DNA from: Paenirhodobacter ferrireducens | GTDB lineage: Bacteria > Pseudomonadota > Alphaproteobacteria > Rhodobacterales > Rhodobacteraceae | Reading direction: 5' to 3' | Assembly: GCF_004022265.1 (NCBI RefSeq) | Contig: NZ_SAVB01000003.1 | Span: 62,001 to 126,000 of the forward strand | DNA: 64,000 nt | Shown: positions 6,896-60,651 of the stretch, piece after piece | Position numbering within the stretch: position 1 is the first letter of the stretch | Layout of the letters: each line of letters opens with the position of its first letter | The notes under the pieces: model-generated | The model's database searches: none | What the model was told of the DNA's origin: nothing | The model's input: only the letters and a program-made list of their open reading frames with translations | Translations under genes and position numbers: made by a program

Positions 6896-8344
6896 ATGAT
6901 CGAGTTGCGCCCGGTGGGCTACATCATCGGCCTGCTGGCCACGGCCCTCGGGGCGGCGATGCTGATCCCGGCCGCGCTCGATTTCCTGCGCGGCGATGCC
7001 AATGCCGGCGCCTTCCTCGAGGCGGCGATCGTCACCATGACCGCGGGCGGGTTGGTGGCGCTGGCGGCCCATGACGGGCGCGGCACGATGCTGAGCCTGC
7101 GCCAGAGCTTCGTCGTCACCACCGGCGCCTGGGCGGTACTGCCCGCCTTCGGCGCGCTGCCCTTCCTCACCGGGGCGCCGGGGCTCGACTTCACCGACGC
7201 CTATTTCGAGGCGATGTCGGGGCTGACCACCACCGGCACGACGGCGATCCCCGAGCTCGACGAGCTGCCTGCCGGCACCAACCTGTGGCGGGCGATCCTG
7301 CAATGGTTGGGCGGGCTCGGCATCATCATCGTGGCGATGATCTTCCTGCCGGTGATGAAGGTCGGCGGCATGCAGTTCTTCCGCTCGGAAGGCTTCGACA
7401 CGCTGGGCAAGATCCTGCCGCGGGCGATGGACATCTCGGCGGCGCTGATCCGGGTCTATGTCGGGCTGACGGTGGCCTGCGCGGTGACCTATGCCGTGCT
7501 TGGCATGACCGCCTTCGATGCGGTGGTGCATGCGCTGACCACGCTCTCGACCGGGGGCTTCTCGAATTACGACGCGAGCTTCGGTGTCTATCGCGGCGCG
7601 CCGGAATATGCGGCCTCGCTGTTCATGCTGCTGGCCGCGATGCCCTTCATCCGCTTCGTGCAGCTTGCCCAGGGCAACCCCGCACCGCTGTGGCGCGACC
7701 CGCAGGTGCGCGCCTTCCTGCGCTGGCACGGCTATGCGATCGCGGTGATCGTGCTCTATCGCCTGATCCGGCACGAAAGCGCGTTCTGGCCGACGCTGCG
7801 CGAGGTGACCTTCAACGTCGTCTCGACCTTCACCGGCACCGGCTATGCCTCCGAGGACATCACCACCTGGGGGCATCTGGCCTTCGTGGTGCTGATCATC
7901 ACCGGGCTGATCGGCGGCTGCACCTCGTCGACCGGCTGCTCGGTCAAGGTGTTCCGCTATCTGATCCTATTCCAGGCGATCAAGGTGGCGATCCGGCGGC
8001 TCTACAGCCCGCACCGGGTGATGGGGATGCGCTATGACGGCCGCGCGGTCGAGCGCGAGGTGCTCGATTCCGTCGTCGCCTTCTTCACCCTCTTCGTGCT
8101 GACCTTCGGCGGGCTGATCGTGGCGCTGTCGCTGACCGGGCTCGCCCCGCGCACGGCGCTGACCGCGGCCTGGACGGCGATCGCCAATGTCGGGCCGGCC
8201 TGGGGGCCCGAGGTGTCGTCCAACGGCGCCGTCGACCGCTTCCCCGACAGCGCGAAATGGCTGATGGCGCTCGGGATGATGCTTGGCCGGCTCGAGCTGA
8301 TGTCGGCCTTCGTGCTGCTCTTGCCGAAGTTCTGGCGCGGCTGA
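6896..8344 (+). CDS. trkH: TrkH family potassium uptake protein
   Basis: 482-residue integral membrane channel subunit of the Trk system, which imports potassium and normally partners the NAD-binding TrkA. The four-fold pore repeat is visible as filter-like segments: MSGLTTTGTT near residue 110, TTLSTGGFSNYD near 220, VSTFTGTGYASED near 315 and IANVGPAWGPE near 430, joined by hydrophobic helices. Length matches TrkH. The start at 6896 (MIELRPVGYIIG) begins the first membrane helix, with AGCAGGGGG upstream; an upstream in-frame ATG at 6827 would add a charged stretch not seen in the family. It is divergent from pyc and convergent with the next gene. No trkA is in the window. Confidence 0.93.
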   Translation: MIELRPVGYIIGLLATALGAAMLIPAALDFLRGDANAGAFLEAAIVTMTAGGLVALAAHDGRGTMLSLRQSFVVTTGAWAVLPAFGALPFLTGAPGLDFTDAYFEAMSGLTTTGTTAIPELDELPAGTNLWRAILQWLGGLGIIIVAMIFLPVMKVGGMQFFRSEGFDTLGKILPRAMDISAALIRVYVGLTVACAVTYAVLGMTAFDAVVHALTTLSTGGFSNYDASFGVYRGAPEYAASLFMLLAAMPFIRFVQLAQGNPAPLWRDPQVRAFLRWHGYAIAVIVLYRLIRHESAFWPTLREVTFNVVSTFTGTGYASEDITTWGHLAFVVLIITGLIGGCTSSTGCSVKVFRYLILFQAIKVAIRRLYSPHRVMGMRYDGRAVEREVLDSVVAFFTLFVLTFGGLIVALSLTGLAPRTALTAAWTAIANVGPAWGPEVSSNGAVDRFPDSAKWLMALGMMLGRLELMSAFVLLLPKFWRG

Positions 8345-8373
8345 GCGCCGCGCCCGCGGTCAGGTTCGGGCGG

Positions 8374-10158
8374 TCATTTCCAGCAGGCGATCTGCACGGT
8401 GAATTTCTGCGCCTCGACGGCCAGATCCTCGGCCGCGAGCGTGCCCGTGGCCTCCGACGCCGTCGGCATGAAGCCATGCTCGGCCAGCACCTGAACGAGC
8501 GGCATCGCCTGCACCGCCTCGGTCAGATCGGCGGGCATCAGCTTGGTGCCATCGGCCGCGCGCGGCAGGACGATGCCGACAAGCGCGCCCGAGCCATCGA
8601 GCACTGGCCCGCCCGCATCGCCCGCCAGGGTGTGCACCGCGAGCCGCGCCCGGTTCGCCTCGCCGGCAAGGCCGGTCAGATCGGAGAGCGTGCCGAAGCT
8701 CAGCACCGGCGCGGTCAGCGCCTCGGGATAGGAAAAGCCCGCCACCGCCACTTGCGCGCCGGCGGCGGTCGCCGCGGTCTCGAAGGTGACGATGCCGGCA
8801 GGGGCCATCGCCTTCTTCGGCCGCAGCACCGCAATGCCAAGCGCCGGATCGGTGAAGGCGAGATCCGCCTCCTCGTCCTCGATGGTGATCTTGGTGCAGG
8901 TGTCGAGCCCGGCGCCCGCCGTCAGCACCGCGCCCTTCTCGTCGATGAAGGCGCCCGAGCGGGCAAATTCCGGGTGCCGCCGCTCGAGCCCCGCCATCAG
9001 ATCGCCGCGCGTCACCGTCATCGGGGTGCCGAGCGAGGGATCGAGCGCGGTGCTGCCGATCGGCCGGAACGAGGCCTTCATCGCCGCCAGCACGCGCTGC
9101 ATCTTCGCCTCCTGCCCGGGCGGCCAGGCCAGGGTGAAGCCCTTGATCAGCCCGCCCGCCAGATGCGCCTCGGTCCAGGAGCGCAGGCTGTCGTTCTGCC
9201 CGGCGATGGTGAAGCCGCTGCGGTTGCGGCTGCGCTCGCCCTCGGCGGGCACCAGCGCCAGCGCCTGCATCCGGTCGTAAAGCCCGTAAAGCGCGTTCTG
9301 GTCGCCGGTCTGGGACAGCAGCAGCGCCGTGACGCCCGAGCCGTCCTTGGCGCGATAGACGACGAAGGGCGGGTCGTAGCGGTCGAATTCGATCAGGCCG
9401 AGCGGCAGGTCGATGGCAATGCCGGCGTCGGTCTCCTCGACGGTCTCGAGACCAAGGGCGGCGCGGTCGGCCGCGACGGCGGCGAGAAGCTGCGTCTGCT
9501 GCGTCGAGGCGAGCACGCCGGTCGGCGCAAAGCCCTGCGCCGTCTGCCATGCGGCGATCGCCGCGCGCGTGCCGCGGCCGAAGGCGCCGTCGATGGTGGC
9601 GTTGTAGAACCCCTGCCATTCGAGCGCGGCCTGAATCTCCATCCGTGCCTCGCGGTCAAGCGCCGCCTCGAGCCGCTGCGACTCGGCCAGCGTCTCGACC
9701 GGCGGCGTCGGTTCAGGGGCGGCGGGCAGAGCCTCGGCCGGGGGCGGTTCGGCGCCGGTGGTTTCGGGGGCGGGGGCCTCCGGCGCCGGCGTCCCGGCCG
9801 TCCCGGGCAGCGGGGCGGTGCCGTTGGGCCAGAACTGGCCGCGGAAGCGGCCGCCGTCCGAGACATAGCTGTCGCCCGGGATCAGCCCCTCGCGGCGCAG
9901 CGTGCGCAGCCGCGCCGTCGCCTCTGCGGTGTCGGCGAAGGGGCCGATAGCGATGGCATACCAGCCCGTCGACATCGCGAAACCGGCGATATCGGGGAAC
10001 ATGCCGGCCCAGTCCCGCGCGCGCTCCTCGGCCTGCGGGAGCGAGGGCTGCGCCTCGATCTGCAGCCAGACCGGCTCGGCCGCGCCGGGCCCCGTCCAGA
10101 TCAGCCCCGCCAGACCCGCCGCCGTCGCGAGGTGCATCGCCCTGCGCATTCCCGTCAT
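8374..10158 (-). CDS. Exported SPOR-like/peptidoglycan-binding protein with degenerate trypsin-like domain
   Basis: 594-residue secreted protein. It has a signal peptide (to about residue 27, ending GPGAAEP), then a SPOR-like repeat region (YAIAIGPFADTAEATARLRT), a Pro/Ala-rich linker, a PG_binding_1 domain (IQAALEWQGFYNATIDGAFG, about residues 175-235), a middle region and a C-terminal chymotrypsin-fold domain. The last is recognisable from GDAGGPVLDGSGALVGIVLP, but the usual GDSGGP serine is alanine. The position expected for TAAH reads LTAGAGLD, without His, and the Asp strand reads DPALGIAVL. I therefore infer a non-catalytic wall-binding or scaffold role. The start at ATG 10158 gives the cleanest signal peptide; GTG 10170 and ATG 10149 are alternatives. 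It is divergent from glyQ. Confidence 0.8.
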   Translation of the reverse strand: MTGMRRAMHLATAAGLAGLIWTGPGAAEPVWLQIEAQPSLPQAEERARDWAGMFPDIAGFAMSTGWYAIAIGPFADTAEATARLRTLRREGLIPGDSYVSDGGRFRGQFWPNGTAPLPGTAGTPAPEAPAPETTGAEPPPAEALPAAPEPTPPVETLAESQRLEAALDREARMEIQAALEWQGFYNATIDGAFGRGTRAAIAAWQTAQGFAPTGVLASTQQTQLLAAVAADRAALGLETVEETDAGIAIDLPLGLIEFDRYDPPFVVYRAKDGSGVTALLLSQTGDQNALYGLYDRMQALALVPAEGERSRNRSGFTIAGQNDSLRSWTEAHLAGGLIKGFTLAWPPGQEAKMQRVLAAMKASFRPIGSTALDPSLGTPMTVTRGDLMAGLERRHPEFARSGAFIDEKGAVLTAGAGLDTCTKITIEDEEADLAFTDPALGIAVLRPKKAMAPAGIVTFETAATAAGAQVAVAGFSYPEALTAPVLSFGTLSDLTGLAGEANRARLAVHTLAGDAGGPVLDGSGALVGIVLPRAADGTKLMPADLTEAVQAMPLVQVLAEHGFMPTASEATGTLAAEDLAVEAQKFTVQIACWK

Positions 10159-10319
10159 CGTGAAACCCACTTCCTGTTCTCAAAACGGGGTGAGGTTAGC
10201 AGGCTGACCGCCCGCGTCACCCCGGAAATCGCGGGAAATCGGGTCCGGGGGCAGGGCGGGGCGTTGACCCTTGCCCGGCGCTTGCCTAGAGAGAAGGCGC
10301 TTTGAACCAGAGGGAAGCC

Positions 10320-11258
10320 ATGTCGAACCCTGTCGCTCCGCGGTCGTTCCAGGAAATCATCCTGCGGCTCATGAATTACTGGGCCTCGAAAGGCTGCGCG
10401 GTGCTGCAGCCCTATGACATGGAGGTGGGCGCGGGCACCTTCCACCCGGCGACGACGCTGCGCTCGCTCGGCTCGAACCCCTGGGCCGCGGCCTATGTCC
10501 AGCCCTCGCGCCGTCCGACCGACGGCCGCTATGGCGAGAACCCGAACCGGCTGCAGCACTATTATCAGTATCAGGTGCTGATCAAGCCGAGCCCCTCGAA
10601 CCTGCAGGAGCTCTATCTCGGCTCGCTCGCCGCGATCGGCATCGACCTTGACCTGCACGACATCCGCTTCGTCGAGGACGACTGGGAGAGCCCGACGCTG
10701 GGCGCTTGGGGGCTTGGCTGGGAAGTCTGGTGCGACGGCATGGAAGTCAGCCAGTTCACCTATTTCCAGCAGGTCGGCGGGCATGACTGCAAGCCGGTCT
10801 CGGGCGAGCTGACCTATGGGCTCGAACGGCTGGCGATGTATGTGCTCGGCATCGACCACGTCATGCAGATGCCATTCAACGCGCCCGACGCGCCGATCCC
10901 GCTGACCTATGGCGACGTGTTCCGGCAGACCGAGGAAGAGTATTCGCGCCACAACTTCGATGCGGCCAACACCGAGATGCTCTTGCGCCATTTCGAGGAT
11001 GCCGAGGCGGAATGCGAGCGGCTGCTGTCCTTCCCGGCCGAAGACCCGAACTCGGGCAAGCGCATCATCATGGTGCACCCGGCCTATGACCAGTGCATCA
11101 AGGCGAGCCACCTGTTCAACCTGCTCGATGCGCGCGGGGTGATCTCGGTGACCGAGCGGCAGGCCTATATCGGCCGGGTCCGGGCGCTCGCCAAGAAATG
11201 CGCCGATGCCTTCGTGCAGACCACCGCCGGCGGCTGGACGCCCGACGCGGCCGCGTGA
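10320..11258 (+). CDS. glyQ: Glycyl-tRNA synthetase alpha subunit
   Basis: 312-residue catalytic subunit of the alpha2beta2 bacterial GlyRS. Conserved motifs include [20 protein letters not shown] at the N terminus, [19 protein letters not shown], the aminoacylation segment [20 protein letters not shown], and [20 protein letters not shown]. The start at 10320 (MSNPVAPRS) has AGAGGGAAG upstream. The beta subunit glyS follows 1.2 kb downstream on the same strand, but a convergent marC-family gene lies between, so glyQ probably has its own promoter in the 160-base gap with the divergent pseudoprotease gene. Confidence 0.98.
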
Positions 11259-11276
11259 CCCCGCGGGGCCGGGCGT

Positions 11277-11909
11277 TCAGCCCAGCCCCGGCAGCAGCGC
11301 CTTCAGCCCCGTCGTCGCCATGTCGACGGCGATGGCGATCAGGATCATTCCCATCAGCCGGGTCATGATGACGCGCAGCGTCTGCGTCGTCACCCGGGTG
11401 ATGGTGCCGGAAAACCACAGCACGCAGAGCATCGCCAGCAAAACGCAGCCGATCGCGAGCGCGAGCGCGACAGAGCCCGCAAGCCCCCGCGCCTGCCCGG
11501 TAAAGATCACCAGGGTGGCGATCGTGCCGGGCCCGACGATCATCGGGAAGGTCATCGGGTAGAAGGCGATGCTGTCAAGCGCCTGCTGCTGGGCTTGTTC
11601 GTCGGGGGTGCCCGAATGGGCGCTGTGGCCATTGCCGTTCAGCATACCAAGCCCGATTGTCGCCAGCACGATCCCGCCCGCGACGCGGAAGTCGTCGATG
11701 CTGATCCCGAAGACCGACAGCACCCGCAGCCCCGCCACCGCGATCACGAGGCACATCCCGGCGCTGAAGGCGATGGTGGCCAGCGCCGCGCGGTGCCGGC
11801 TGGGCGCATCCCAGTCCGCGGTCAGGCTGAGAAACATCGGCAACGCGATGAACGGGTTCATGATCGCGAAGAAGGCGGCGAGCGACTTGATGAAGAACAG
11901 GGGATCCAA
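11277..11909 (-). CDS. MarC family integral membrane protein
   Basis: 210-residue protein with six predicted membrane helices and the MarC/UPF0056 pattern: FFAIMNPFIALPMFLSLT near residue 12, VAGGIVLATIGLGMLNG near 72, and FYPMTFPMIVGPGTIATLV near 113. The transported substrate, if any, is unknown; the old link to antibiotic resistance in E. coli was not upheld. I chose the TTG at 11909 (reads DPLFFIKSL next) because AAGGAAG lies 6 bases upstream and homology begins there; ATG 11948 is possible but lacks a ribosome site. The gene is convergent with glyQ, with an 18-base gap. Confidence 0.85.
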   Translation of the reverse strand: MDPLFFIKSLAAFFAIMNPFIALPMFLSLTADWDAPSRHRAALATIAFSAGMCLVIAVAGLRVLSVFGISIDDFRVAGGIVLATIGLGMLNGNGHSAHSGTPDEQAQQQALDSIAFYPMTFPMIVGPGTIATLVIFTGQARGLAGSVALALAIGCVLLAMLCVLWFSGTITRVTTQTLRVIMTRLMGMILIAIAVDMATTGLKALLPGLG

Positions 11910-12017
11910 TGCGTCTTCCTTCCGGCTGTCGTGCCTGTCTAACGGCATGAACCCGATTGTGCAAAATCCTCCTGCCTGCGCTTGCGCGGCGGCGGGCGGG
12001 CCTGTATGCGCTGGGCT

Positions 12018-12500
12018 ATGGCGGTCAGGGGACGATATGTCGGAGGCTTTCTCGTGTTCAGCGCGCTGATCACCGGGGCTGCGGTCTATTATCTGCAGGT
12101 CTACGGCTATTATCATGCGGTCGATGCGGCGGCGCCTGCCGCCGAGGTGCGGCTGACCGCGATCGAGACCGGCGCGCCCGAGCCGATCCTCGCCGAGGAT
12201 TTTCAGGGCATCGACGCCGACAGCTCGCCGCTGCGCTATCGCGGCTGCTTCCGCACGCCGATGAGCCTTGCGCTGCTGACCGAGACCTTCACCGTCTATG
12301 ACAAGGCCACGCCGCTCACCGCGCCGGGCTGGTTCTCCTGTTTCGACGCGGCCCGGATCGGCGCCGATATCGAGACAGGGACGGCGGTGGCCTTCCTGTC
12401 CGAACACGACATCCACCCCGGCGTCGACCGCGTGGTGGCGATTTATCCCGATGGCCGGGCCTATGCCTGGCAGCAACTGAATGACGAAGCGGGGAAGTGA
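12018..12500 (+). CDS. Small membrane-anchored protein upstream of glyS (DUF6446-like)
   Basis: 160-residue protein with one N-terminal membrane anchor (about residues 7-27, GFLVFSALITGAAVYYLQ) followed by a soluble domain with two separated cysteines (RYRGCFRTP and GWFSCFDAA), presumably periplasmic. It resembles the short anchored proteins that precede glyS in Rhodobacterales (DUF6446), whose function is unknown. The stop at 12498-12500 is one base before the glyS start, so translation is coupled and the pair forms an operon. Starts at 12018 (MAVRGRYVGG) or 12006 are both possible; neither has a strong ribosome site. A link to glycyl-tRNA metabolism is only positional. Confidence 0.7.
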   Translation: MAVRGRYVGGFLVFSALITGAAVYYLQVYGYYHAVDAAAPAAEVRLTAIETGAPEPILAEDFQGIDADSSPLRYRGCFRTPMSLALLTETFTVYDKATPLTAPGWFSCFDAARIGADIETGTAVAFLSEHDIHPGVDRVVAIYPDGRAYAWQQLNDEAGK

Positions 12501-12501
12501 C

Positions 12502-14562
12502 ATGCCCGATCTGCTGATTGAACTCTTCTCCGAGGAGATCCCGGCGCGGATGCAGCCGGGGGCGCGGGAAGCGCTGAAGAAGCTGGTGACCGACGGTCTC
12601 GTCGAGGCCGGCCTGACCTATGGTCATGCCGCGGCCTTCTCGACGCCGCGGCGCCTGACGCTGGCCCTCGAGGGGCTGAGCGCCGAAAGCCCGACGCTGC
12701 GCGAAGAGCGCAAGGGCCCCTCGACCGGCGCGAACGAGAAGGCGATCGAGGGCTTCCTGCGCTCGACCGGCCTGACGCTCGAGCAGCTCGAGGTGCGCGA
12801 CGACAAGAAGGGTCAGGTCTATTTCGCCGTGGTCGAGAAACCCGGCCGCAGCGCGCCCGAGATCGTCGCCGAGGTGCTGGAAAAGACGATCCGCACTTTC
12901 CCCTGGCCGAAGTCGATGCGCTGGGGCTCGGGCACGCTCAAATGGGTGCGGCCGCTGCATTCGATCCTGTGCCTGCTGACCACCGAGGCCGGCGCCGAGG
13001 TCGTCGATCTGGAAGTCGAGGGCATCCGCTCGGGCAACACCACCGAGGGCCACCGCTTCATGGCGCCGGGCCGCTTCGCGGTCTCGGGCTTTGACGATTA
13101 CGTCGCCAAGCTGAAGGCGGCGAAGGTCGTGCTCGACAGTGCCGAGCGCGAGGAGATCCTGTGGAACGAGGCGCAGACGCTGGCCTTCGCGCGCGGGCTC
13201 GAGCTGGTGCCCGACCGGGGCCTTCTGGCCGAGGTCGCGGGGCTGGTCGAATGGCCGGTCGCGCTGATGGGCGACATCGCCGAAACCTTCCTCGGCCTGC
13301 CGCCCGAGGTGCTGCAGACCTCGATGAAGGAGCATCAGAAGTTCTTCTCGGTGAAGAACCCGAAGACCGGCCGGATCGAGGGCTTCGTCACCGTGGCGAA
13401 CCGCGAGACCGCCGACCATGGCGCGACGATCCTGAAGGGCAACCTCAAGGTGCTGTCGGCGCGGCTGTCGGATGCCAAGTTCTTCTGGGAACACGACCTG
13501 CGGATCGTCAAGACCGAGGGGCTCGAGGGCATGGGCGAGGGGCTGGCCCAGGTCACCTTCCACAACAAGCTCGGCTCCCAGGCGGCGCGGATCGAACGCA
13601 TCGAGGCGCTGGCTCAGGAGATCGCGCCGATGGTCGGTGCGCAGCCCGATCTGGCCGCCGAGGCCGCGCGGGTGGTGAAATCCGACCTGCGCTCGGCGAT
13701 GGTCGGCGAGTTCCCGGAACTTCAGGGCCTGATGGGCAGCTATTACGCCCGGGCCGCGGGCCTGCCCGAGGCGGTCGCGAATGCCTGCAAGGGCCATTAC
13801 TCGCCGCTCGGCCCCTCGGACGAGGTGCCCTCGGAGCCGGTGACGGTGGCGGTGGCGCTCGCTGACAAGATCGACACGCTCACCGGCTTCTGGGCGATCG
13901 ACGAGAAGCCCACGGGCTCGAAAGACCCCTTCGCGCTGCGTCGTGCGGCGCTGGGCGTGATCCGGCTGGTGCTGGTGAACGGGCTGCGGCTTGACCTTGC
14001 GAAGGTCTTCGCGACGGCGAATGACAAGACCGATGCGGCCGACCTTCTGGCTTTCTTCCATGACCGCCTGAAGGTCTTCATGAAGGATCAGAACATCCGC
14101 CACGACGTGATCGACGCGGTGCTCGCCATGCCGGGCAACGACGATCTGACGCTTGTCGTGAAGCGGGCCGAGGCGCTGGTCGCGTTCCTGAAGACCGAGG
14201 ATGGCGGCAACCTGATCCAGGGCTTCAAGCGCGCCAACAACATCCTCAGCCAGGCCGAGGCGAAGGACGGGGTCGAATACAGCTTCGGCGCCGATCCGAA
14301 GTTTGTCGAAGGCGCCGAGGAGACGGCGCTGTTCGCCGCGCTCGATGCCGCCGAGGCGGCGATCGGCCCGGCGATGGCGGCCGAGGAGTTCGGCGCCGCG
14401 ATGGCCGCGATGGCCGCCCTGCGCGCGCCGATCGACGCCTTCTTCACCGCGGTGCAGATCAATGCCGAGAACGAGATCGTGCGCCGCAACCGGCTCAACC
14501 TGCTCTCGCGCATCCGCCAGATCTGCCTGAGCGTCGCCGACCTTGCGAAGATCGAGGGCTGA
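12502..14562 (+). CDS. glyS: Glycyl-tRNA synthetase beta subunit
   Basis: 686-residue beta subunit of GlyRS, needed for tRNA binding and activity of the alpha subunit. The N terminus MPDLLIELFSEEIPARMQPG is characteristic. Inner motifs such as PKSMRWGSGTLKWVRPLHSI near residue 132 and TSMKEHQKFFSVKNPKTG near 273 are typical, and the HD-like domain (ADKIDTLTGFWAIDEKPTGS, about 452) precedes the C-terminal DALR anticodon-binding region. The start at 12502 has GGGGAAGTG upstream and follows the preceding stop by one base. A copy of the REP-like palindrome arm follows it at 14629-14654, at the junction with the convergent SorC regulator. Confidence 0.98.
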   Translation: MPDLLIELFSEEIPARMQPGAREALKKLVTDGLVEAGLTYGHAAAFSTPRRLTLALEGLSAESPTLREERKGPSTGANEKAIEGFLRSTGLTLEQLEVRDDKKGQVYFAVVEKPGRSAPEIVAEVLEKTIRTFPWPKSMRWGSGTLKWVRPLHSILCLLTTEAGAEVVDLEVEGIRSGNTTEGHRFMAPGRFAVSGFDDYVAKLKAAKVVLDSAEREEILWNEAQTLAFARGLELVPDRGLLAEVAGLVEWPVALMGDIAETFLGLPPEVLQTSMKEHQKFFSVKNPKTGRIEGFVTVANRETADHGATILKGNLKVLSARLSDAKFFWEHDLRIVKTEGLEGMGEGLAQVTFHNKLGSQAARIERIEALAQEIAPMVGAQPDLAAEAARVVKSDLRSAMVGEFPELQGLMGSYYARAAGLPEAVANACKGHYSPLGPSDEVPSEPVTVAVALADKIDTLTGFWAIDEKPTGSKDPFALRRAALGVIRLVLVNGLRLDLAKVFATANDKTDAADLLAFFHDRLKVFMKDQNIRHDVIDAVLAMPGNDDLTLVVKRAEALVAFLKTEDGGNLIQGFKRANNILSQAEAKDGVEYSFGADPKFVEGAEETALFAALDAAEAAIGPAMAAEEFGAAMAAMAALRAPIDAFFTAVQINAENEIVRRNRLNLLSRIRQICLSVADLAKIEG

Positions 14563-14628
14563 GCCCCGGCGCGGCGCCCCTTCCCCGGCCGGGGAGGGGG
14601 CGCTGCCCCCGCCTGCCGCTGGCAGGCC

Positions 14629-14654
14629 CCCCGAGGTATTTCGGGCAAGATGAA
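14629..14654. repeat. REP-like repeat arm between convergent glyS and SorC-type gene
   Basis: 26 bases (CCCCGAGGTATTTC then GGGCAAGATGAA) are identical to the reverse complement of the right arm of the palindrome at 51894-51958. Both copies lie between convergent gene ends. The surrounding 14563-14671 gap also holds GC-rich self-complementary stretches (GGCCGGGGAGGGGGCGC) that could help terminate transcription. Confidence 0.75.
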
Positions 14655-14671
14655 AGCCCCGGGGTGTTTCC

Positions 14672-15679
14672 TTAGGTGGCCGCGAGGGCGAGGGCCGTCG
14701 CCTCGTCGGTGACGAGGACGCTCGCCAGCCCGCCGCGCAGCATGGCGCGGATCGCCTCGACCTTTTCCGGACCGCCGCCGATGCAGATCCGCTCGGGCAC
14801 CTGCAGCAGATCGCCAAGCGCCATGGTGATGTGGCGGCCGTCGAACTCGCTGTGCACGATCCTGCCGTCCGCATCGAAGAAATAGCCCGCGGCGAAGCCC
14901 ACCGCGCCGAGGTCGCGATAGGCGGCAAGCTCGGCCTCGGTCATGAAGCCGCCCTGCACCAGCAGCGTCTCGCCGGTCAGCTGGGTGACGCCGAACACCG
15001 CCTTGGTGCAGCCGCGCAGCAGCGCGAAATGGTCGCGGATCGCCGGCTCGTGCATCAGGATCTCCTTCACATGCGGCGAGGAGACGACGCCCGGCGCATG
15101 CAGGTTGATCGCCCGCGCGTTCAGCCGCGCCGCGATGTTCGAGGTGCACAGCACCGGCGAGAAGTCGAAGGTGGCGGCGGAGGATCCGGTGATCTGCGCC
15201 ACGGTGACGGTCGGGCAGGCGATGGCACTGAGGTGTTGCGAGAGCGCGAGCACGGTGCGCCCCCAGGCGACGCCGATCGTGTCCTCGGGCCGCAGCCGGT
15301 TTTCCAGCACCCGCGCCGCGAGATGGCCGATCTGGCCATGCAGCGATCCGCCCTCGCCCTCGCCCTCGCGCTGGCGCGGCAGGATGTAGCATTCCGCAAG
15401 GCCTGTCGCGGCGCAGATCTTCAGTGACAGCGCCATTCCGGCGATTCGCGTCGGGTCGATCGAGATGTTCACCACCCCCTCGTCGCGCGCCTTCTGCAGC
15501 AGGTTGAACACCGAGGCGCGGGAGATCCCCAGCTCCTCGGCGATCCGGTCCTGCTTTTGCCCCTGCTCGTAATAGAGCCAGGCCGCCCAGAGCACCTCGT
15601 CCATGCCGAATTGCGCCGGAACGGCGCGCCGGCCGGTCCGGGGCTCGGTCGTCTCGATCAAATCCGCTTTTCTTGCCAT
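14672..15679 (-). CDS. SorC/DeoR-type sugar-binding transcriptional regulator
   Basis: 335-residue regulator. It has an N-terminal helix-turn-helix (QKQDRIAEELGISRASVFNL, about residues 42-61) and a C-terminal sugar-phosphate-isomerase-like effector domain with IGVAWGRTVLALSQHL, VAQITGSSAATF and ICIGGGPEKVEAIRAML. SorC-family proteins usually repress adjacent catabolic operons and are released by a phosphorylated sugar intermediate; EryD of erythritol catabolism is one relative (family knowledge). The start at ATG 15679 has AAGGGAAAA upstream. It is divergent from the ten-gene catabolic operon and shares a 172-base control region containing a palindrome at 15785-15813, so it very likely regulates that operon and itself. 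Confidence 0.9.
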   Translation of the reverse strand: MARKADLIETTEPRTGRRAVPAQFGMDEVLWAAWLYYEQGQKQDRIAEELGISRASVFNLLQKARDEGVVNISIDPTRIAGMALSLKICAATGLAECYILPRQREGEGEGGSLHGQIGHLAARVLENRLRPEDTIGVAWGRTVLALSQHLSAIACPTVTVAQITGSSAATFDFSPVLCTSNIAARLNARAINLHAPGVVSSPHVKEILMHEPAIRDHFALLRGCTKAVFGVTQLTGETLLVQGGFMTEAELAAYRDLGAVGFAAGYFFDADGRIVHSEFDGRHITMALGDLLQVPERICIGGGPEKVEAIRAMLRGGLASVLVTDEATALALAAT

Positions 15680-15784
15680 GCGTTTTCCCTTCGTCGGTCG
15701 GGGCCGAAATGCGCCCCGACCTGTTGGGCAGTCTCGCATGAAAGCGGGTGTTTTGGCAAATGCCGACATTACGTGAAAATTGTT

Positions 15785-15813
15785 GTTGACGAATGACAGA
15801 GTCATCTGGCAAC
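15785..15813. promoter_or_regulatory. Candidate operator for the SorC-type regulator
   Basis: Two 13-base half-sites, GTTGACGAATGAC and GTCATCTGGCAAC, form an inverted repeat (10 of 13 positions match) around an AGA centre, with a perfect ATGAC/GTCAT core. It lies 39 bases before the first start codon of the operon and overlaps a TTGACG that could be a -35 element. The assignment as operator is inference. Confidence 0.55.
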
Positions 15814-15851
15814 TTTCAAATCAAGGGAGAGCACTTGCTTGGGAGGAGCAG

Positions 15852-17192
15852 ATGAGCTTGCCGCTGACGGCGCGCGAGAGCGCGACCGGGGGCTGGAATG
15901 CCCTCATCGAAGACGTCACCACCGGCCGCTGGCAGGACCCGGACACCGGGGCTGCGGTCACCGTGCCGTTCCGCTGCATCGAGATCGGCGACGGGTTTGC
16001 CGCTGGGGCGCGGGATCTGGTCGAGCGGGTGATGCGGGCCGGGAGCTATGCCGTGGTCTGCGACGCCGACACCGCCGAGGCGATGGGGGCCGAGGTTGCC
16101 CGGGCGATGGGGGCGACGGCACGGCTGGTCGTGCTCGATCACCCGCATGCCGACGCGGCGCAGGTGCGGGCGCTGAGCGACGAGACCCGCGATGTCGAGG
16201 CGCTGATCGCCGTCGGTTCGGGCACGATCAACGATCTTTGCAAATACGCGACCTTCCGCGACGGGCGGGCCTACAGCGTCTTCGGCACCGCGCCCTCGAT
16301 GAACGGATACACCTCGTCGACGGCCTCGATCACCCTCGAGTCCGGGCTGAAGACGACGCAGAAGGCGCATGCCGCGCGCGGCGTCTTCATCGACATCGGG
16401 GTTTCGGCCGCGGCGCCGCAATACCTGATCGGGGCGGGGCTCGGTGACAGCCTGTGCCGCCCCACCGCGCAGGTCGACTGGTATTTCTCGCATGTGATGC
16501 TGGGCACGCGCTATGCCACCGCCCCCTATCTGCTGCAGGAAGAGGACGAGGCCGCGGTTCTGGCGCGCAGCGCCGGGCTTGGTGCGCGCGAGCATGACGC
16601 CATCGGCTACCTGCAGCGGCTGCTGACGCTCGGCGGGCTGGGCATCGCGGTGGTGGGGATGAGCCACCCGGGCTCGATGGGCGAGCATCAGATCTCGCAC
16701 TGGATCGACAGCTTTGCCGGCGCGCGGCATCCGGGCACGGTGCATGGCCAGCAGGTCGGCGTTGCCTCGGTCACCATGGCGCGGCTGCAGGCGCGGATCC
16801 TCGCGATGGAAGAGGCGCCGCGGCTGCGGCCCTGGCAGCCCGACGAGGCGGCGATCCGGGCGCGCTATCCGGCCGCCGCGGTTGAGGATTGCCTGACCGC
16901 GAGCCGGGCGAAGGCGATGACGGCCGAGGATGCCGAAGCCTTCAACGCCAAGCTTGCCGCGATCTGGCCCGAACTGCGCGCGACGCTCGGCGCGATGATG
17001 CTGCCGCCGGACGAGATGGCGGCGCATCTGCGCGCGGCCGGCGGCGGTGCGACGCCGGCCGAGATCGGCCTCGACCGCGACCTCTATATCGAGGCGCTGC
17101 GCCACTGCCGCGAGATGCGCGACCGCTATTCGCTGCTCGATCTGGCCGAGGACATCGGCATTCTGGACGATTTCATCGAGGAGGAAGTCTGA
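15852..17192 (+). CDS. AraM/EgsA-like sn-glycerol-1-phosphate dehydrogenase
   Basis: 446-residue member of the iron/zinc alcohol dehydrogenase superfamily, closest in pattern to bacterial AraM and archaeal G1P dehydrogenase, which interconvert glycerol-1-phosphate and dihydroxyacetone phosphate with NAD(P). Visible features are a dinucleotide-binding segment (IAVGSGTINDLCKYATFRDG), the substrate loop PSMNGYTSSTASI, and metal ligands Asp in GLGDSLCRPTAQVDW, His in SMGEHQISH and His in VHGQQVG. The start at 15852 has GGGAGGAGCAG upstream. It is the first gene of the catabolic operon and overlaps the HAD gene by one base (TGATG). In this context it may oxidise a sugar-alcohol phosphate other than G1P (inference). 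Confidence 0.85.
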   Translation: MSLPLTARESATGGWNALIEDVTTGRWQDPDTGAAVTVPFRCIEIGDGFAAGARDLVERVMRAGSYAVVCDADTAEAMGAEVARAMGATARLVVLDHPHADAAQVRALSDETRDVEALIAVGSGTINDLCKYATFRDGRAYSVFGTAPSMNGYTSSTASITLESGLKTTQKAHAARGVFIDIGVSAAAPQYLIGAGLGDSLCRPTAQVDWYFSHVMLGTRYATAPYLLQEEDEAAVLARSAGLGAREHDAIGYLQRLLTLGGLGIAVVGMSHPGSMGEHQISHWIDSFAGARHPGTVHGQQVGVASVTMARLQARILAMEEAPRLRPWQPDEAAIRARYPAAAVEDCLTASRAKAMTAEDAEAFNAKLAAIWPELRATLGAMMLPPDEMAAHLRAAGGGATPAEIGLDRDLYIEALRHCREMRDRYSLLDLAEDIGILDDFIEEEV

Positions 17193-18007
17193 TGCGACCG
17201 CTTGCCGAGCTCGACCCGGCCGCGCTGCGCGGTTGCGTCGCGGTGCTGACCGATATCGACGACACGCTGACCACCGACGGGCAGTTGCCCGCCGCCGCCT
17301 ATGGGGCGCTCGAGCGGCTGGCGCAGGCCGGGCTTGCGGTGGTGCCGATCACCGGCCGCCCGGCGGGCTGGTGCGACATGATCGCCCGGTTCTGGCCGGT
17401 CGCCGGGGTGGTGGGCGAGAACGGCGCCTTCTACTTCAGCTATGACCGCACGGCGCGGGTGATGCGGCAGCGCTTCTTCGCGCCAGAGGCCGAGCGTCAG
17501 GCGAACCGCGCCCGGCTGAGCGCGCTGCGCGAGCGGATCCTGCGCGAGGTGCCGGGGGCGGGGATCGCCTCGGATCAGCTCTACCGCGAGGCAGATCTCG
17601 CCATCGACTTCTGCGAGGACGTGCCGGCATTGCCCGAGGCCGAGGTGCAGCGCATCCTCGACATCTTCGCCGAGGCGGGGGCGGTGGCGAAACTGTCGTC
17701 GATCCATGTGAACGGCTGGTTCGGCGACTACGACAAGCTGTCGATGACCCGGATCTTCGCACGCGACATCCTCGGGCTCGACATCGACGCCGAGCGGGCG
17801 CGGGTGATCTTTGCCGGCGACAGCCCGAACGACGGGCCGATGTTCGGCTTCTTCCCGAACAGCTGCGGCGTGGCGAATGTGCGCGACTTCGCGCCGGGCA
17901 GCTTCACGCCGCCGGCCTTCGTCGCCGCCTCGGAAGGGGGCGCGGGGTTCGTCGAGATCGCCGAGCGGATCCTTGGCGCGCGGGTGCCGGAGGCGGCCGA
18001 TGCCTGA
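17192..18007 (+). CDS. HAD-IIB superfamily sugar-phosphatase-like hydrolase
   Basis: 271-residue haloacid-dehalogenase hydrolase. Motif I is LTDIDDTLTTDG (nucleophile Asp and acid Asp), motif II ITGRP, motif III a Lys around KLSMTR, and motif IV IFAGDSPNDGPMFGFF. The C2-type cap between motifs II and III places it with sucrose/mannosyl-phosphoglycerate phosphatase-like enzymes. The substrate is unknown but is presumably a phosphorylated intermediate of the surrounding pathway. The start ATG at 17192 shares its A with the TGA of the previous gene, and the stop overlaps the GlpD-like gene by 8 bases, so expression is tightly coupled. A phosphatase inside a kinase-containing catabolic operon is unusual; see findings. 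Confidence 0.85.
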   Translation: MRPLAELDPAALRGCVAVLTDIDDTLTTDGQLPAAAYGALERLAQAGLAVVPITGRPAGWCDMIARFWPVAGVVGENGAFYFSYDRTARVMRQRFFAPEAERQANRARLSALRERILREVPGAGIASDQLYREADLAIDFCEDVPALPEAEVQRILDIFAEAGAVAKLSSIHVNGWFGDYDKLSMTRIFARDILGLDIDAERARVIFAGDSPNDGPMFGFFPNSCGVANVRDFAPGSFTPPAFVAASEGGAGFVEIAERILGARVPEAADA

Positions 18008-41345: not shown

Positions 41346-41650
41346 ATGATTCCCGGAGAAATCTTCCCCGCCGACGGCGTGATCACCCTGAACGAGGGGC
41401 TCGAGGCGATCACCCTCACCGTCTCGAACACCGGCGACCGGCCGGTGCAGGTGGGCTCGCATTACCATTTCGCCGAAACCAACCCGGGCCTGAGCTTCGA
41501 CCGCGCCGCCGCGCGTGGCTATCGGCTCGACATCGCCGCGGGCACCGCGGTGCGCTTCGAACCGGGCCAGACCCGCGAGGTGCGGCTGGTGCCCTATCGC
41601 GGCGCGCGCAAGGTGTTCGGCTTCAATCAGACCGTGATGGGGGACCTCTG

Positions 41651-41651
<1 letters not shown>
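41346..41651 (+). CDS. ureB: Urease beta subunit
   Basis: 101-residue structural subunit starting [20 protein letters not shown]. It contains [20 protein letters not shown] and [20 protein letters not shown], the standard beta-subunit strands. The stop shares its last base with the ureC start (TGATG), ensuring coupled synthesis with the catalytic subunit. Confidence 0.98.
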
Positions 41652-43357
<1,706 letters not shown>

Positions 43358-45792: not shown

Positions 45793-47100
45793 ATGATGCG
45801 GTTTGGGACGCGGTTTGGGAACCTGATGGCGGGCGCGGCACTGGCCACGCTGTTCTCGGCGGGCGGCGCGCTCGCCGAGGGCGACACGATCAAGGTCGGC
45901 GTGCTGCATTCGCTGTCGGGCACGATGGCGATCTCGGAGACGACGCTGAAGGACACCGTCCTGATGCTGATCGACGAACAGAACAAGAAGGGCGGCCTTC
46001 TGGGCAAGAAGATCGAGCCGGTGGTCGTCGACCCGGCCTCCGACTGGCCGCTGTTCGCCGAGAAGGCGCGCGAGCTGATCACCGTCGACAAGGTCGACGT
46101 GATCTTCGGCTGCTGGACTTCGGTCAGCCGCAAGTCGGTGCTGCCGGTGCTCGAGGAGCTGAACGGGTTGCTGTTCTACCCGGTGCAATACGAGGGCGAG
46201 GAAAGCTCCTACAACGTCTTCTACACCGGCGCCGCGCCGAACCAGCAGGCGATCCCGGCGGTGGACTATTTCCTGAATGAGCTCGGCGTGCAGAAATTCG
46301 CGCTGCTGGGCACCGACTATGTCTATCCGCGCACCACGAACAACATCCTGACCGCCTATCTCAAGTCGAAGGGCATCGCCGAGAGCGACATCTTCGTCAA
46401 CTACACCCCCTTCGGGCAGTCGGACTGGTCGAAGATCGTGGCTGACGTCAAGGCGCTTGGCGCCGATGGCAAGAAGGTGGGGGTGATCTCGACGATCAAC
46501 GGCGACGCGAATATCGGCTTCTACAAGGAACTCGCGGCCTCGGGGATCACCGCCGAGGACATCCCCGTCGTCGCCTTCTCGGTGGGCGAGGAGGAGCTTT
46601 CGGGGCTCGGCGAGGGCGATCTGAAGAACCTCGTCGGCCAGCTGGCCGCCTGGAACTATTTCGAAAGCGCCGATACGCCCGAGAACAAGGCCTTCATCGA
46701 CGGCTGGCACAAGTTCACCGGCAACGACAAGCGCGTCACCAACGACCCGATGGAGGCCACCTATATCGGCTTCAACATGTGGGTGAACGCGGTGACCGAG
46801 GCCGGCACCACCAATGTCGACAAGGTCGAGGATGCGATGATCGGGCAGAAATTCCCGAACCTCACCGGCACCACGGCCGAGATGCTGCCGAACCACCACC
46901 TGACGAAGCCGGTGCTGATCGGCGAGATCCAGGCGGACGGCCAGTTCGACATCATCTCGCAGACCGATCCGGTGCCGGGCGACGCCTGGACCGACTTCCT
47001 GCCCGAATCCGCGGTGCTCTCGTCGGACTGGAAGACGCTCAAATGCGGCATGTACAACACCGACACCAAGACCTGCGTTCAGCTGAAGTCGAATTACTGA
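45793..47100 (+). CDS. urtA: Urea ABC transporter substrate-binding protein UrtA
   Basis: 435-residue periplasmic protein with a Sec signal peptide (ending near GGALAEGDT, residue 31). The mature protein follows UrtA/FmdD closely: KVGVLHSLSGTMAISETTLK, VDVIFGCWTSVSRKSVLPV, LLFYPVQYEGEESSYNVFYT, FALLGTDYVYPRTTNNI and a C-terminal GMYNTDTKTCVQL. It binds urea or related amides for import. The start ATG 45793 (or 45796) has GGGGGATTTCACG upstream. Location just after the urease operon strongly supports urea as ligand. Confidence 0.96.
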   Translation: MMRFGTRFGNLMAGAALATLFSAGGALAEGDTIKVGVLHSLSGTMAISETTLKDTVLMLIDEQNKKGGLLGKKIEPVVVDPASDWPLFAEKARELITVDKVDVIFGCWTSVSRKSVLPVLEELNGLLFYPVQYEGEESSYNVFYTGAAPNQQAIPAVDYFLNELGVQKFALLGTDYVYPRTTNNILTAYLKSKGIAESDIFVNYTPFGQSDWSKIVADVKALGADGKKVGVISTINGDANIGFYKELAASGITAEDIPVVAFSVGEEELSGLGEGDLKNLVGQLAAWNYFESADTPENKAFIDGWHKFTGNDKRVTNDPMEATYIGFNMWVNAVTEAGTTNVDKVEDAMIGQKFPNLTGTTAEMLPNHHLTKPVLIGEIQADGQFDIISQTDPVPGDAWTDFLPESAVLSSDWKTLKCGMYNTDTKTCVQLKSNY

Positions 47101-47164
47101 TCGGCTTCGGCACCCAGGAGGGGGCGTTCGCGCCCCCTCCGACGACCCTTGCAGGGAAACCGAG

Positions 47165-49155
47165 ATGCGCACCTTTCTTCTGGCGCTGAGTGCAGGTCTC
47201 TGCCTCACGCTGCCCGCCCCCGCGCAGGAAAGCGCCGCCCCCGTTCCTCCCGACACCACCGTTTCGGCCCCGGCCCTCACCGGCCTCGCTGCGGTGATCG
47301 CGGCGAATGCCGAGGCGATCGCCAGGCCATCGCGCCAGACCATCGGCCCGGTGGTGGAGGCGCTCGTCGCGGCGGGAGAGGGCGCGCCCGGCTTCCTCGC
47401 CGCCTGGGCCGACAAGCGGCTGGGCAACGCAAGTCCGACGGGGCGATCTTCTTGCTGGAGAAGCAGGGCGCCGATTATGCGTTGAGCGACCCGGTCAGCG
47501 GCGCCCCGGCCGGCACCGCGCCGAAAGCCGAGATCGCCGAGATCAAGCCGAATTCCGGCGTGCGCGGCCTGATCGCCGCGGCGCTGGTGCAGTTCCATCT
47601 TTCCGACCCTGACCCGGCCCAGCGTCGCGCCGCGCTCGAGGCGCTCGCCCGCGAGGGCGGGGCCGAGCATCTCGCCCCGCTCGCCGCCGCGATCGAGGGG
47701 GAAAGCGATCCGGCGATCAAGGCGCAGAAGGAGCGCCTGCTCGGCCTGCTGACCATCCGCTTCGGTGCGACCCCGGCCGAGCGTGTCACGGCGATCGAGG
47801 GCTTCGGTGCCGACATGGCGCTTGATTTCCGCGGCGCGCTGAACCCGATCCTCGCCACCGCGCGCGCGGCCTTCGATGGCGCCCCCGCCGGCAACGTGGC
47901 GCAGGAGCTGCGCCCGGGCCAGCGCGGCTTCACCGCCGAGGAAGCCTATGCACTTCTCGTCGCCCAGGGGCTCGCGCCGAAACGGCTCACCCGCGCCGAC
48001 CTGCGCGCCGTGCTCGAGGCGTATGTGGAGAACGGCGCGGTCGGCGGCGTCCCGCTGGCCGCGCTCGACGACCCGGCAAAGCGCGACGCGGCCTATACCG
48101 CGCTCGAAGCGGCCGGCCTCGTCCCCGCCGCCGCGACCGATGACGAGGTGGCAAACACCGTTGCCGCGCACCGTTACGCCGAGATCTACGCCGAACCCGA
48201 CGCCGCCGTCACCACGGCCGCCGCCGCGGCGCTGCAATCCGTGTCGCTCAAAGTCGATGCGATGCAGGGGATCGACCTCGGCCTCGATGCCCTCTCGCTC
48301 GCCTCGATCTACTTCCTCGCGGCGATCGGGCTGGCCATCACCTTCGGCGTGATGGGGGTGATCAACATGGCGCATGGCGAGTTCATCACCATGGGCGCCT
48401 ACACGGGCTATGTCGTGCAGCTCTGGATCCACGACTATACCGCCTCGATCCTCGTGGCCCTTCCCCTGGCCTTTGCTGTCACCTTCACCGCGGGTGTGGC
48501 GATGGAGCGGCTGGTGATCCGCCACCTCTACAAGCGCCCGCTGGAAACGCTTCTGGCCACCTTCGGCATCTCGATCGCGCTGCAGCAGCTCTTCAAGAAC
48601 ATCTTCGGCACCCAGGCCCGGCCGCTCACCGCGCCCGACTGGCTCGACGGTGCCTGGGTGCTGAACGACATCGTCGGCATCTCCTATATCCGCATCGCGA
48701 TCTTCGTGCTCGCGCTCATCTTCCTCGGCCTCTACCTCTTCGTGATGAAGCGCACCCGGCTCGGCCTCGAGGTCCGCGCGGTGACGCAGAACCCCTCGAT
48801 GGCGGCCTCGATGGGGATAAACCCCGACCGCATCAACATGCTGGCCTTCGGGCTTGGCTCGGGCATCGCGGGGATCGCGGGGGTGGCCATCGGCCTCTTT
48901 GCCAAGGTCACCTCGGAACTCGGCTCCGATTACATCGTGCAAAGCTTCATGACCGTGGTCGTCGGCGGCGTCGGCAATATCTGGGGCACGCTCGCGGGGG
49001 CGACGCTGGTCGGCTTCCTGCAAAAGGGGATCGAGGCGCTGAACCCCTCGAACACGCTGGCCGCGCAGACCTACATGATCCTCTTCATCATCATCTTCAT
49101 CCAGTTCCGGCCGCGGGGCATCATCGCCCTCAAGGGCCGCGCGGCGGGGGATTGA
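47165..49155 (+). pseudogene. urtB: urtB, urea ABC transporter permease, apparent single-base frameshift
   Basis: The gene starts at 47165 with a signal peptide (MRTFLLALSAGLCLTLPAPA) and a HEAT-like periplasmic region. Near 47424-47428 the frame breaks: the start frame reads DKRLGNASPTG and stops at 47485, while the next frame down resumes family sequence (QRKSDGAIFLLEKQGADYAL) and runs to 49155. One extra base after CTGGGC would restore LGQRKSDG. The second part holds the rest of the N-terminal domain, then the permease from about 48270 (SIYFLAAIGLAITFGVMGVI, INMAHGEFITMGAYTGYVV) ending FRPRGIIALKG. Intact, it would be about 660 residues. Either a real deletion disabling UrtB or a sequencing error. 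No obvious programmed slip site is visible. Confidence 0.88.
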
Positions 49156-49195: not shown

Positions 49196-50422
49196 ATGAA
49201 ACCCGGCTTTCTCGCAAAGAACCCCTCGGTTCTCGCCTTCCTTGCGCTGCTTGCGCTCTTCACCCTCGCGGTGACGCTGCTCTCGACCGCCTACGGGGCC
49301 GAGATCGTCTCGACCTCGATGGTCAAGACGCTGGGCAAGACGCTGTGCCTGTGCCTGATCGCGATCGCGATGGATCTGGTCTGGGGCTATACCGGCATTC
49401 TCAGCCTCGGCCATTTCGCCTTCTTCGGGCTTGGCGGCTACATGATCGGCATGTGGCTGATGGTTGCCCGCACCCGCGAGATCGTGCTGGCCTCGGCCGC
49501 GGGCGTGCTGCCGATGACGCTGCAGGAGCTGAGTGACGCGATCGCCACGCAGATCTTCGGCGTCGTGGGCTCGTCCGAGCTTCCGGCAATCTGGCACTTC
49601 GCCGGATCGCTGCCGATGCAGCTGATCTTCGTCGTGCTGGTGCCGGGGCTCCTCGCCTTCCTCTTCGGCTGGCTCGCCTTCCGTTCGCGCGTCACCGGCG
49701 TCTATCTCTCGATCCTGACCCAGGCGATGACGCTCGCGCTGTCGCTCTACCTCTTCCAGAACGACTCCGGCCTGCGCGGCAACAACGGGCTTTCCGGGCT
49801 GCAGAACATTCCGGGCCTTGCCGCCGATCAGGACCACCTGTCGGTGTGGTTCCTCTGGGCCTCGGCCGTGGCGCTCGGGCTCGGCTATCTGCTTGCCAGC
49901 TTCGTCACCTCGGGCAAGTTCGGCTCGGTGATGCGCGGCATCCGCGACGACGAGGCGCGGGTGCGGTTCCTCGGCTATTCGGTCGAGAGCTACAAGCTCT
50001 TCGTCTTCACCCTGACCGCGGTGATCGCCGCGATTGCCGGCGCGCTTTATTACCCGCAGGCGGGCATCATCAACCCGGCCGAGATGGCGCCGATCGCCTC
50101 GATCTACCTCGCCGTCTGGGTGGCGATCGGGGGCAGGGGCCGGCTTTACGGCGCGGTGATGGGCGCGGCCTTCGTCTCGCTCGTCTCGACCTGGTTCACC
50201 GGCGGGCGGGCGCCCGATCTGACCCTCGGGATCTACACGGTGAAATGGGTCGACTGGTGGCAGGTGCTCTTGGGCCTCAGCTTCGTCCTTGTCACGCTCT
50301 TCGCGCCGAAGGGGCTCTCGGGGCTTGTCGACCTGCTTGCCGGGCTGCGGACGCCCTGGCGTGGCGGCACCCCGCTCGGCCCCGATGACGGCTCGCTGCG
50401 CGAAGAGGAGGCGGTGGAATGA
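49196..50422 (+). CDS. urtC: Urea ABC transporter permease UrtC
   Basis: 408-residue branched-chain-amino-acid-type permease (LivM class) with about ten membrane helices. Family segments are LIAIAMDLVWGYTGILSLGH, FFGLGGYMIGMWLMV, LTQAMTLALSLYLFQND-GLRGNNGLSG, SVMRGIRDDEARVRFLGYSV (coupling helix) and LYYPQAGIINPAEMAPIASI, typical of UrtC. The start at 49196 follows GGAGG. It lies 40 bases after urtB, and its stop overlaps urtD by 4 bases. With UrtB it forms the channel. Confidence 0.96.
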   Translation: MKPGFLAKNPSVLAFLALLALFTLAVTLLSTAYGAEIVSTSMVKTLGKTLCLCLIAIAMDLVWGYTGILSLGHFAFFGLGGYMIGMWLMVARTREIVLASAAGVLPMTLQELSDAIATQIFGVVGSSELPAIWHFAGSLPMQLIFVVLVPGLLAFLFGWLAFRSRVTGVYLSILTQAMTLALSLYLFQNDSGLRGNNGLSGLQNIPGLAADQDHLSVWFLWASAVALGLGYLLASFVTSGKFGSVMRGIRDDEARVRFLGYSVESYKLFVFTLTAVIAAIAGALYYPQAGIINPAEMAPIASIYLAVWVAIGGRGRLYGAVMGAAFVSLVSTWFTGGRAPDLTLGIYTVKWVDWWQVLLGLSFVLVTLFAPKGLSGLVDLLAGLRTPWRGGTPLGPDDGSLREEEAVE

Positions 50423-51159
50423 AGGCGCTGCTCGAGGTCTCCGGCATCTCCGTCTCCTTCGACGGCTTCCGCGCGATCAACAATCTCTCCTTCTCGATCG
50501 GCCCGGCCGAGCTGCGCGCGGTGATCGGCCCGAACGGGGCGGGCAAGACCACCTTCATGGACATCGTCACCGGCAAGACCCGCCCCGACGAGGGCCGCGT
50601 GCTCTGGGGCGAGAAATCGGTCAACCTGCTGCGGATGAACGAGGCCCAGATCGCCCGCGCCGGCATCGGCCGCAAGTTCCAGCGCCCGACGGTGTTCGAG
50701 GATCAGTCGGTGACCGAGAACCTGATGATGGCGCTGAAGGCGGCGCGCGCGCCCTGGAAGGTGCTGGTCTGGCGCCCGTGCCCGGCCGATCATGCCCGGG
50801 TTGCGGCATTGGCGGCGCAGGTCGGGCTTGCCGACAGCCTGACGCGGAAATCCGGAGAATTGTCTCACGGTCAGAAACAATGGCTCGAGATCGGCATGCT
50901 GCTGGCGCAGGAGCCGCGGTTGCTTCTGGTCGACGAACCCGCCGCCGGCATGACCTTGGCCGAGCGCGAGCAGACCACCGCGCTGCTGGTCGATCTGGCG
51001 AAGACCCGCGCCGTGGTGGTGGTCGAGCATGACATGGACTTCGTGCGCCGGCTGAACTGCCGCGTCACCGTGCTGCACGAGGGATCGGTGCTGGCCGAGG
51101 GCTCGCTCGATCACGTCACCGCCGACCGGCAGGTCATCGAAGTCTATCTGGGGCGCTGA
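50419..51159 (+). CDS. urtD: Urea ABC transporter ATPase UrtD
   Basis: 246-residue LivG-type ATPase. Walker A is GPNGAGKTTFMDIVTGKTRP, Q-loop region IGRKFQRPTVFEDQSV, signature LSHGQKQWLEIGMLLA (LSHGQ is characteristic of UrtD), Walker B LLLVDEPAAGM, and switch His in VVVEHDMDFVRRL. The start overlaps urtC (ATGA). It energises urea import together with UrtE, which follows 2 bases later. Confidence 0.96.
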   Translation: MKALLEVSGISVSFDGFRAINNLSFSIGPAELRAVIGPNGAGKTTFMDIVTGKTRPDEGRVLWGEKSVNLLRMNEAQIARAGIGRKFQRPTVFEDQSVTENLMMALKAARAPWKVLVWRPCPADHARVAALAAQVGLADSLTRKSGELSHGQKQWLEIGMLLAQEPRLLLVDEPAAGMTLAEREQTTALLVDLAKTRAVVVVEHDMDFVRRLNCRVTVLHEGSVLAEGSLDHVTADRQVIEVYLGR

Positions 51160-51161
51160 AG

Positions 51162-51857
51162 ATGCTGGAAACCAAGGGGCTTACACTGCATTACGGCGGA
51201 TCTCAGATCCTTTACGGCATCGACATGGTGGCGAAGGCGGGCGAGGTGACCTGCATCATGGGCACCAATGGCGTGGGCAAGACCTCGCTTCTGAAGGCGA
51301 TCTCGGGCACCCATCCGCGCTCGGGCGGCACGCTTGTCCTCGATGGTGAGGAGGTGCCGCGGGTGCCGCCGCAAGGGATGGCGCGGCGCGGTCTTGGCTA
51401 TGTGCCGCAGGGGCGGATGATCTTCCCGCTGCTCACCGTGCGCGAGAACATGGAAACCGCCTTCGCCGTTCTGCCGAAATCCGAGCGTTTCATCCCCGAC
51501 GAGATCTACGATCTGTTTCCGATCCTGAAGGAATTCCTGCATCGCCGCGGCGGCGATCTGTCCGGCGGGCAGCAGCAGCAGCTGGCGATTGCGCGGGCGA
51601 TGCTGATGAAGCCGAAGATCCTGCTGCTCGACGAGCCGACCGAAGGGATCCAGCCCAACATCATCCAGCAGATCGGCCGCGTCATCGCCTATCTGCGCGC
51701 CCGCGGCGATATCGCGATCATCCTCGTCGAACAGTATTTCGACTTCGCCCATGATCTCGGCGACCGCTTCTATGTGCTCAAGCGCGGCGCGGTGGCGATG
51801 GAGGGGACGAAGGTGTCTCTGACCCGCGAGGCGCTGCGCGAGGTGGTGAGCGTCTGA
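51162..51857 (+). CDS. urtE: Urea ABC transporter ATPase UrtE
   Basis: 231-residue LivF-type ATPase: Walker A GTNGVGKTSLLKAISGTHPR, LGYVPQGRMIFPLLTVREN, signature LSGGQQQQLAIARAML, Walker B ILLLDEPTEGIQPN, and switch His position replaced by Gln in ILVEQYFDFAHDL, as is usual for LivF/UrtE. It is the last gene of urtABCDE, followed by the large REP-like palindrome that separates it from the convergent ubiH-like gene. Confidence 0.96.
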   Translation: MLETKGLTLHYGGSQILYGIDMVAKAGEVTCIMGTNGVGKTSLLKAISGTHPRSGGTLVLDGEEVPRVPPQGMARRGLGYVPQGRMIFPLLTVRENMETAFAVLPKSERFIPDEIYDLFPILKEFLHRRGGDLSGGQQQQLAIARAMLMKPKILLLDEPTEGIQPNIIQQIGRVIAYLRARGDIAIILVEQYFDFAHDLGDRFYVLKRGAVAMEGTKVSLTREALREVVSV

Positions 51858-60611: not shown

Positions 60612-60651
60612 AAGTCAGACAAGACCAACAGAAGTCAGACAAGACCAACAG
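60612..60651 (+). repeat. Perfect 20-bp tandem repeat in the leader of the binding-protein gene
   Basis: The unit AAGTCAGACAAGACCAACAG occurs twice head-to-tail with no mismatch, at 60612-60631 and 60632-60651, ending just before the GGGGAG ribosome site (60652 onward) of the gene starting at 60663. Confidence 0.95.

Follow-up and report, generated by a model that had tools for sequence, protein, structure and literature searches.

A one-base frameshift in urtB of the urea transporter operon of Paenirhodobacter ferrireducens, probably a recent mutation and possibly an isolated error

Does the split urtB gene of Paenirhodobacter ferrireducens record a recent mutation or a mistake in the assembly, and what would follow from it for urea import? 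The window analysed here, a stretch of 64,000 nucleotides, belongs to a genome of 4,066,781 bases in 61 contigs that is rated 100% complete. It carries ureC followed by urtA-urtB-urtC-urtD-urtE, and this gene order beside ure genes, together with scores of UrtA, UrtC, UrtD and UrtE that each exceed their own NCBIfam cut-off, matches the known urtABCDE high-affinity urea ABC transporter. Four of the five urt genes are intact, and urtB lies in two reading frames, a one-base frameshift separating its N-terminal part from the remainder. As reference we used a genus set of 18 genomes, grouped as Rhodobacter, 16 of which, the source genome included, carry the long type of UrtB; the closest of them (G008, hereafter the sister genome) shares about 95.6% DNA identity with the source genome in a large aligned block.

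A split urtB in an otherwise intact operon

The features of the locus, in window coordinates, are as follows.

41648..43357, + strand: ureC, urease alpha subunit, intact, 99% identical to the sister copy
45793..47100, + strand: urtA, urea-binding protein, intact (TIGR03407, 540.6 bits)
47165..47424, + strand: urtB first part, frame 1, with the signal peptide and the start of the N-terminal extension, matching 15 genus UrtB N-termini
47422..47424, + strand: one-base loss in a run of three G (four in the sister genome), from pairwise alignments
47425..47485, + strand: continuation of frame 1 past the break, out of frame and closed by TGA at 47483-47485
47425..49155, + strand: urtB remainder, frame one base earlier, 576 codons plus stop, from QRKSDG on
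48283..49140, + strand: conserved UrtB permease domain (TIGR03409 at residues 287-572, PF02653 at residues 288-555 of the second part)
49196..50422, + strand: urtC, permease subunit, intact (TIGR03408, 312.4 bits)
50419..51159, + strand: urtD, ATP-binding subunit, intact (TIGR03411, 362.1 bits)
51162..51857, + strand: urtE, ATP-binding subunit, intact (TIGR03410, 323.7 bits)

In the list of open reading frames of the window, the ATG at 47165 opens a frame of 106 amino acids that runs to the stop at 47485, while the frame 47149-49155 holds the remaining UrtB one base earlier. The open reading frames thereby bear out the initial annotation, which had placed the end of the first part at 47485 and the rest, from QRKSDG on, in the frame one base earlier. 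The first part is 87% identical to its sister counterpart. The second part shares 96.2% identity with the sister UrtB over 576 amino acids and reaches 383.9 bits against TIGR03409, above the cut-off of 250.3, and it contains all of the conserved permease domain. Instead of a single continuous open reading frame from signal peptide to permease domain, we thus found two frames, the first closed by the stop at 47483.

Alignment at the break revealed a run of three G in the window versus four in the sister genome, which has one extra G. The position near 47425 proposed for the frameshift holds, as this is the base that follows the G run; the missing base itself, however, belongs to the run at 47422-47424, not to a site after CTGGGC as had been suggested, and within the run the exact missing base is undefined. 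A tryptophan codon at this place (LWQRK) was considered and rejected, the motif in the genus being RLGQRK or similar. The comparison with relatives called for in the initial annotation was equally clear: both UrtB parts stand in one frame, open across the site, in all 15 other genus copies, and the urtB of the source genome is the one frameshifted copy in the Rhodobacter comparison, which sets it apart from other urtABCDE systems. A frame that is intact in 15/15 relatives is thus broken here by a one-base gap, the pattern of a frameshift pseudogene. No coding frameshift relative to the sister genome was found in the neighbouring urt and ure genes, in keeping with the earlier description of these genes as intact.

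Age of the break

Differences between the window and the sister genome fall mainly on third codon positions, so that the favoured phase of substitutions can be followed along urtB. In window coordinates, 24 of 35 differences before the break and 77 of 101 after it lie in the favoured third-position phase, and these phases differ; in the coordinates of the sister genome the favoured phase is the same on both sides of the site. A phase switch confined to the window implies that urtB was one frame until very recently, its downstream part having been selected in the correct frame over almost the whole period since the two genomes split. Together with the alignment to the sister genome and the TIGR03409 score, this switch confirms the one-base frameshift.

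Branch counts for the second part of urtB, obtained with two outgroups, gave 11 synonymous and 7 nonsynonymous substitutions on the source-genome branch and 7 and 5, respectively, on the sister branch. These counts show no excess of protein-changing substitutions and no clear relaxation on the source-genome branch, which again argues for a recent frameshift. The faster divergence of urtB relative to its neighbours (96% vs 99% identity) is seen in both lineages and is therefore not decay specific to the source genome.

The locus resembles the lineage-specific frameshift pseudogenes of bacteria, a class surveyed in PMC3711429, in that a conserved gene is likewise broken in a single genome at a site lacking a recoding motif. 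It differs from them in showing no decay beyond the single base, and the event must therefore be extremely recent or an error.

Mutation or assembly error

The sequence of the break is known from one assembly, and indel errors most often take the form of a one-base homopolymer difference. A lone mistake in sequencing or assembly, in which the chromosomal urtB would be intact and the consensus would have dropped one base in the G run, is therefore a serious if less favoured explanation. It would account for the altered length of a homopolymer in a GC-rich sequence, for the intact urtB in every genus relative, and for urtC, urtD, urtE and the ure genes, which look fully maintained with no sign of decay.

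The frequency of comparable indels in the rest of the assembly bears directly on this explanation. Within the window, urtB holds the sole non-triplet indel that can be placed inside a gene. Two wider surveys against the sister genome were carried out. The first, a third-position phase test over 289 kb aligned on three contigs, returned urtB as the only gene that is open in the sister genome and broken in the source genome; it recovered 156 of 290 planted single-base deletions (54%; random sites on the window's contig, intergenic ones included). The second covered 383 kb of alignment with 259 genes and 240 kb of coding sequence and recovered 156 of 188 planted coding deletions (83%); urtB itself escaped its simple gene caller, and the two surveys are thus complementary, neither being complete. 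Those of the flagged indels that were examined singly fell at gene boundaries, in intergenic DNA, or where the source genome's own gene is open; at one further flagged place, about 3180 of contig C38, several indels lie close together in a short and doubtful open reading frame.

Besides urtB, neither survey of the alignment with the sister genome (289 and 383 kb) turned up a further coding frameshift. We accordingly rejected a generally indel-rich assembly. Given the surveys, the error rate would have to be low and an error at urtB a lone case, in a run only three to four bases long. The initial annotation had framed the choice correctly as one between recent mutation and error, and on this evidence we favour, with some confidence, a real and very recent one-base loss by contraction of the short G run, the missing base then being absent from the chromosome and not from the assembly alone. 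Taken together, the urtB break is best described as an ordinary, recent frameshift in a single genome, probably real and possibly an isolated error.

Consequences for urea uptake and parallels in other genomes

If the loss is real, an ordinary urtABCDE urea transporter would very recently have lost one base from a short G run in urtB. Read as it stands, urtB would be translated for 106 residues, into the N-terminal extension, and would yield no membrane permease; the urt transporter should therefore be inactive or nearly so. In cyanobacteria, inactivation of urtA, urtB and/or urtE lowered urea uptake by 97-98%, and the residual uptake was ascribed to passive entry, which also occurs into cells (PMC6737895).

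This consequence would not hold if a working permease were still made across the frame change, by programmed or spontaneous -1 frameshifting, by transcriptional slippage or by a restart downstream. The entire conserved permease domain lies downstream of the break, some UrtB-like proteins are little more than a permease domain (TIGR03409 spans 291 positions, and short UrtB copies exist in genus genome G005), and a TTG at 47482 overlaps the TGA stop in the correct frame. The features that mark a programmed ribosomal frameshift, namely a slippery sequence, a stimulatory structure and conservation, were however absent at urtB: frame 1 reads CTG GGC AAC GCA, with no canonical slippery heptamer, the downstream RNA folds no better than its shuffles (z 0.01), and the relatives read through the site in a single frame, so that recoding is not conserved. 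A run of three G is also far too short for polymerase slippage. Programmed frameshifting and slippage were rejected for want of motif and structure. As for a restart, the early start codons have no preceding Shine-Dalgarno-like match, apart from one weak match, GAGG before the GTG at 48025. We thus regard a bridged frame change as highly improbable, and more improbable still that a restart at the TTG overlapping the stop would yield a working permease, which would start without a signal peptide and with a shortened N-terminal extension.

Even with an inactive urt transporter, the "loss of urea import" considered in the initial annotation goes too far. Besides passive entry, the genome holds a second, intact urea/amide-type transporter, and at most the urt transporter would be lost. 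The second cluster lies on contig C1:

L120 (G000:C1:46000-65999), 6939-17401: second ABC transporter, amidase and second urease cluster

It comprises a binding protein, two permeases and two ATP-binding proteins, all of the urea/short-chain-amide type, and a second urease with a fused gamma/beta subunit, an alpha subunit and UreE, further accessory genes being read from the sequences; a nitrilase-like protein is encoded near the transporter on the other strand. The proteins of this cluster score below the urea-specific cut-offs (e.g. 357 vs 494.8 for the archaeal-type binding protein), and judged from sequence, urea is a plausible substrate. This transporter sits beside the second urease, and urea import may therefore persist even if urtB is broken. 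A second urtB of the same type was not found in the genome search, the next best permease being 35% identical. Searches for the urea channels UT and UreI gave no match, the UT search being matchless in every control genome as well, so that its blank result says little about UT channels, and a literature search for the amide/urea transporter FmdDEF returned chemistry papers only. Relatives of urtA are present in 17 of the 18 genus genomes; in one genome (G006) neither the urt binding protein nor urease alpha was matched under the thresholds applied, and the whole urea pathway therefore seems dispensable in the genus.

A single-base loss is a common kind of gene damage and is of little general importance. 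For this strain, automatic annotation would label urtB a pseudogene, and predictions of urea transport need checking and should include the second urea/amide-type transporter. We found no literature on urtB frameshifts. Several alphaproteobacterial records do contain a broken urtB, at sites other than the one described here. Among 72 fetched loci selected for a UrtB identity of 55% or more, that of Hoeflea olei JC234 likewise has urtB in two frames, with the change at about 5014-5044 of locus L091, inside the permease domain, and in the Paracoccus mutanolyticus RSP-02 record the N-terminal region of urtB is interrupted by unrelated sequence at about 3918-4000 of locus L082. By eye, the interrupting sequence in the latter resembles a transposase fragment.

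Elsewhere in the window, a perfect 20-base tandem duplication at 60612-60651, just upstream of a gene start, is present as a single copy in the sister genome, and two tRNA-Gly (GCC) genes, identical over 77 bases, lie side by side on the minus strand at 2231-2402.
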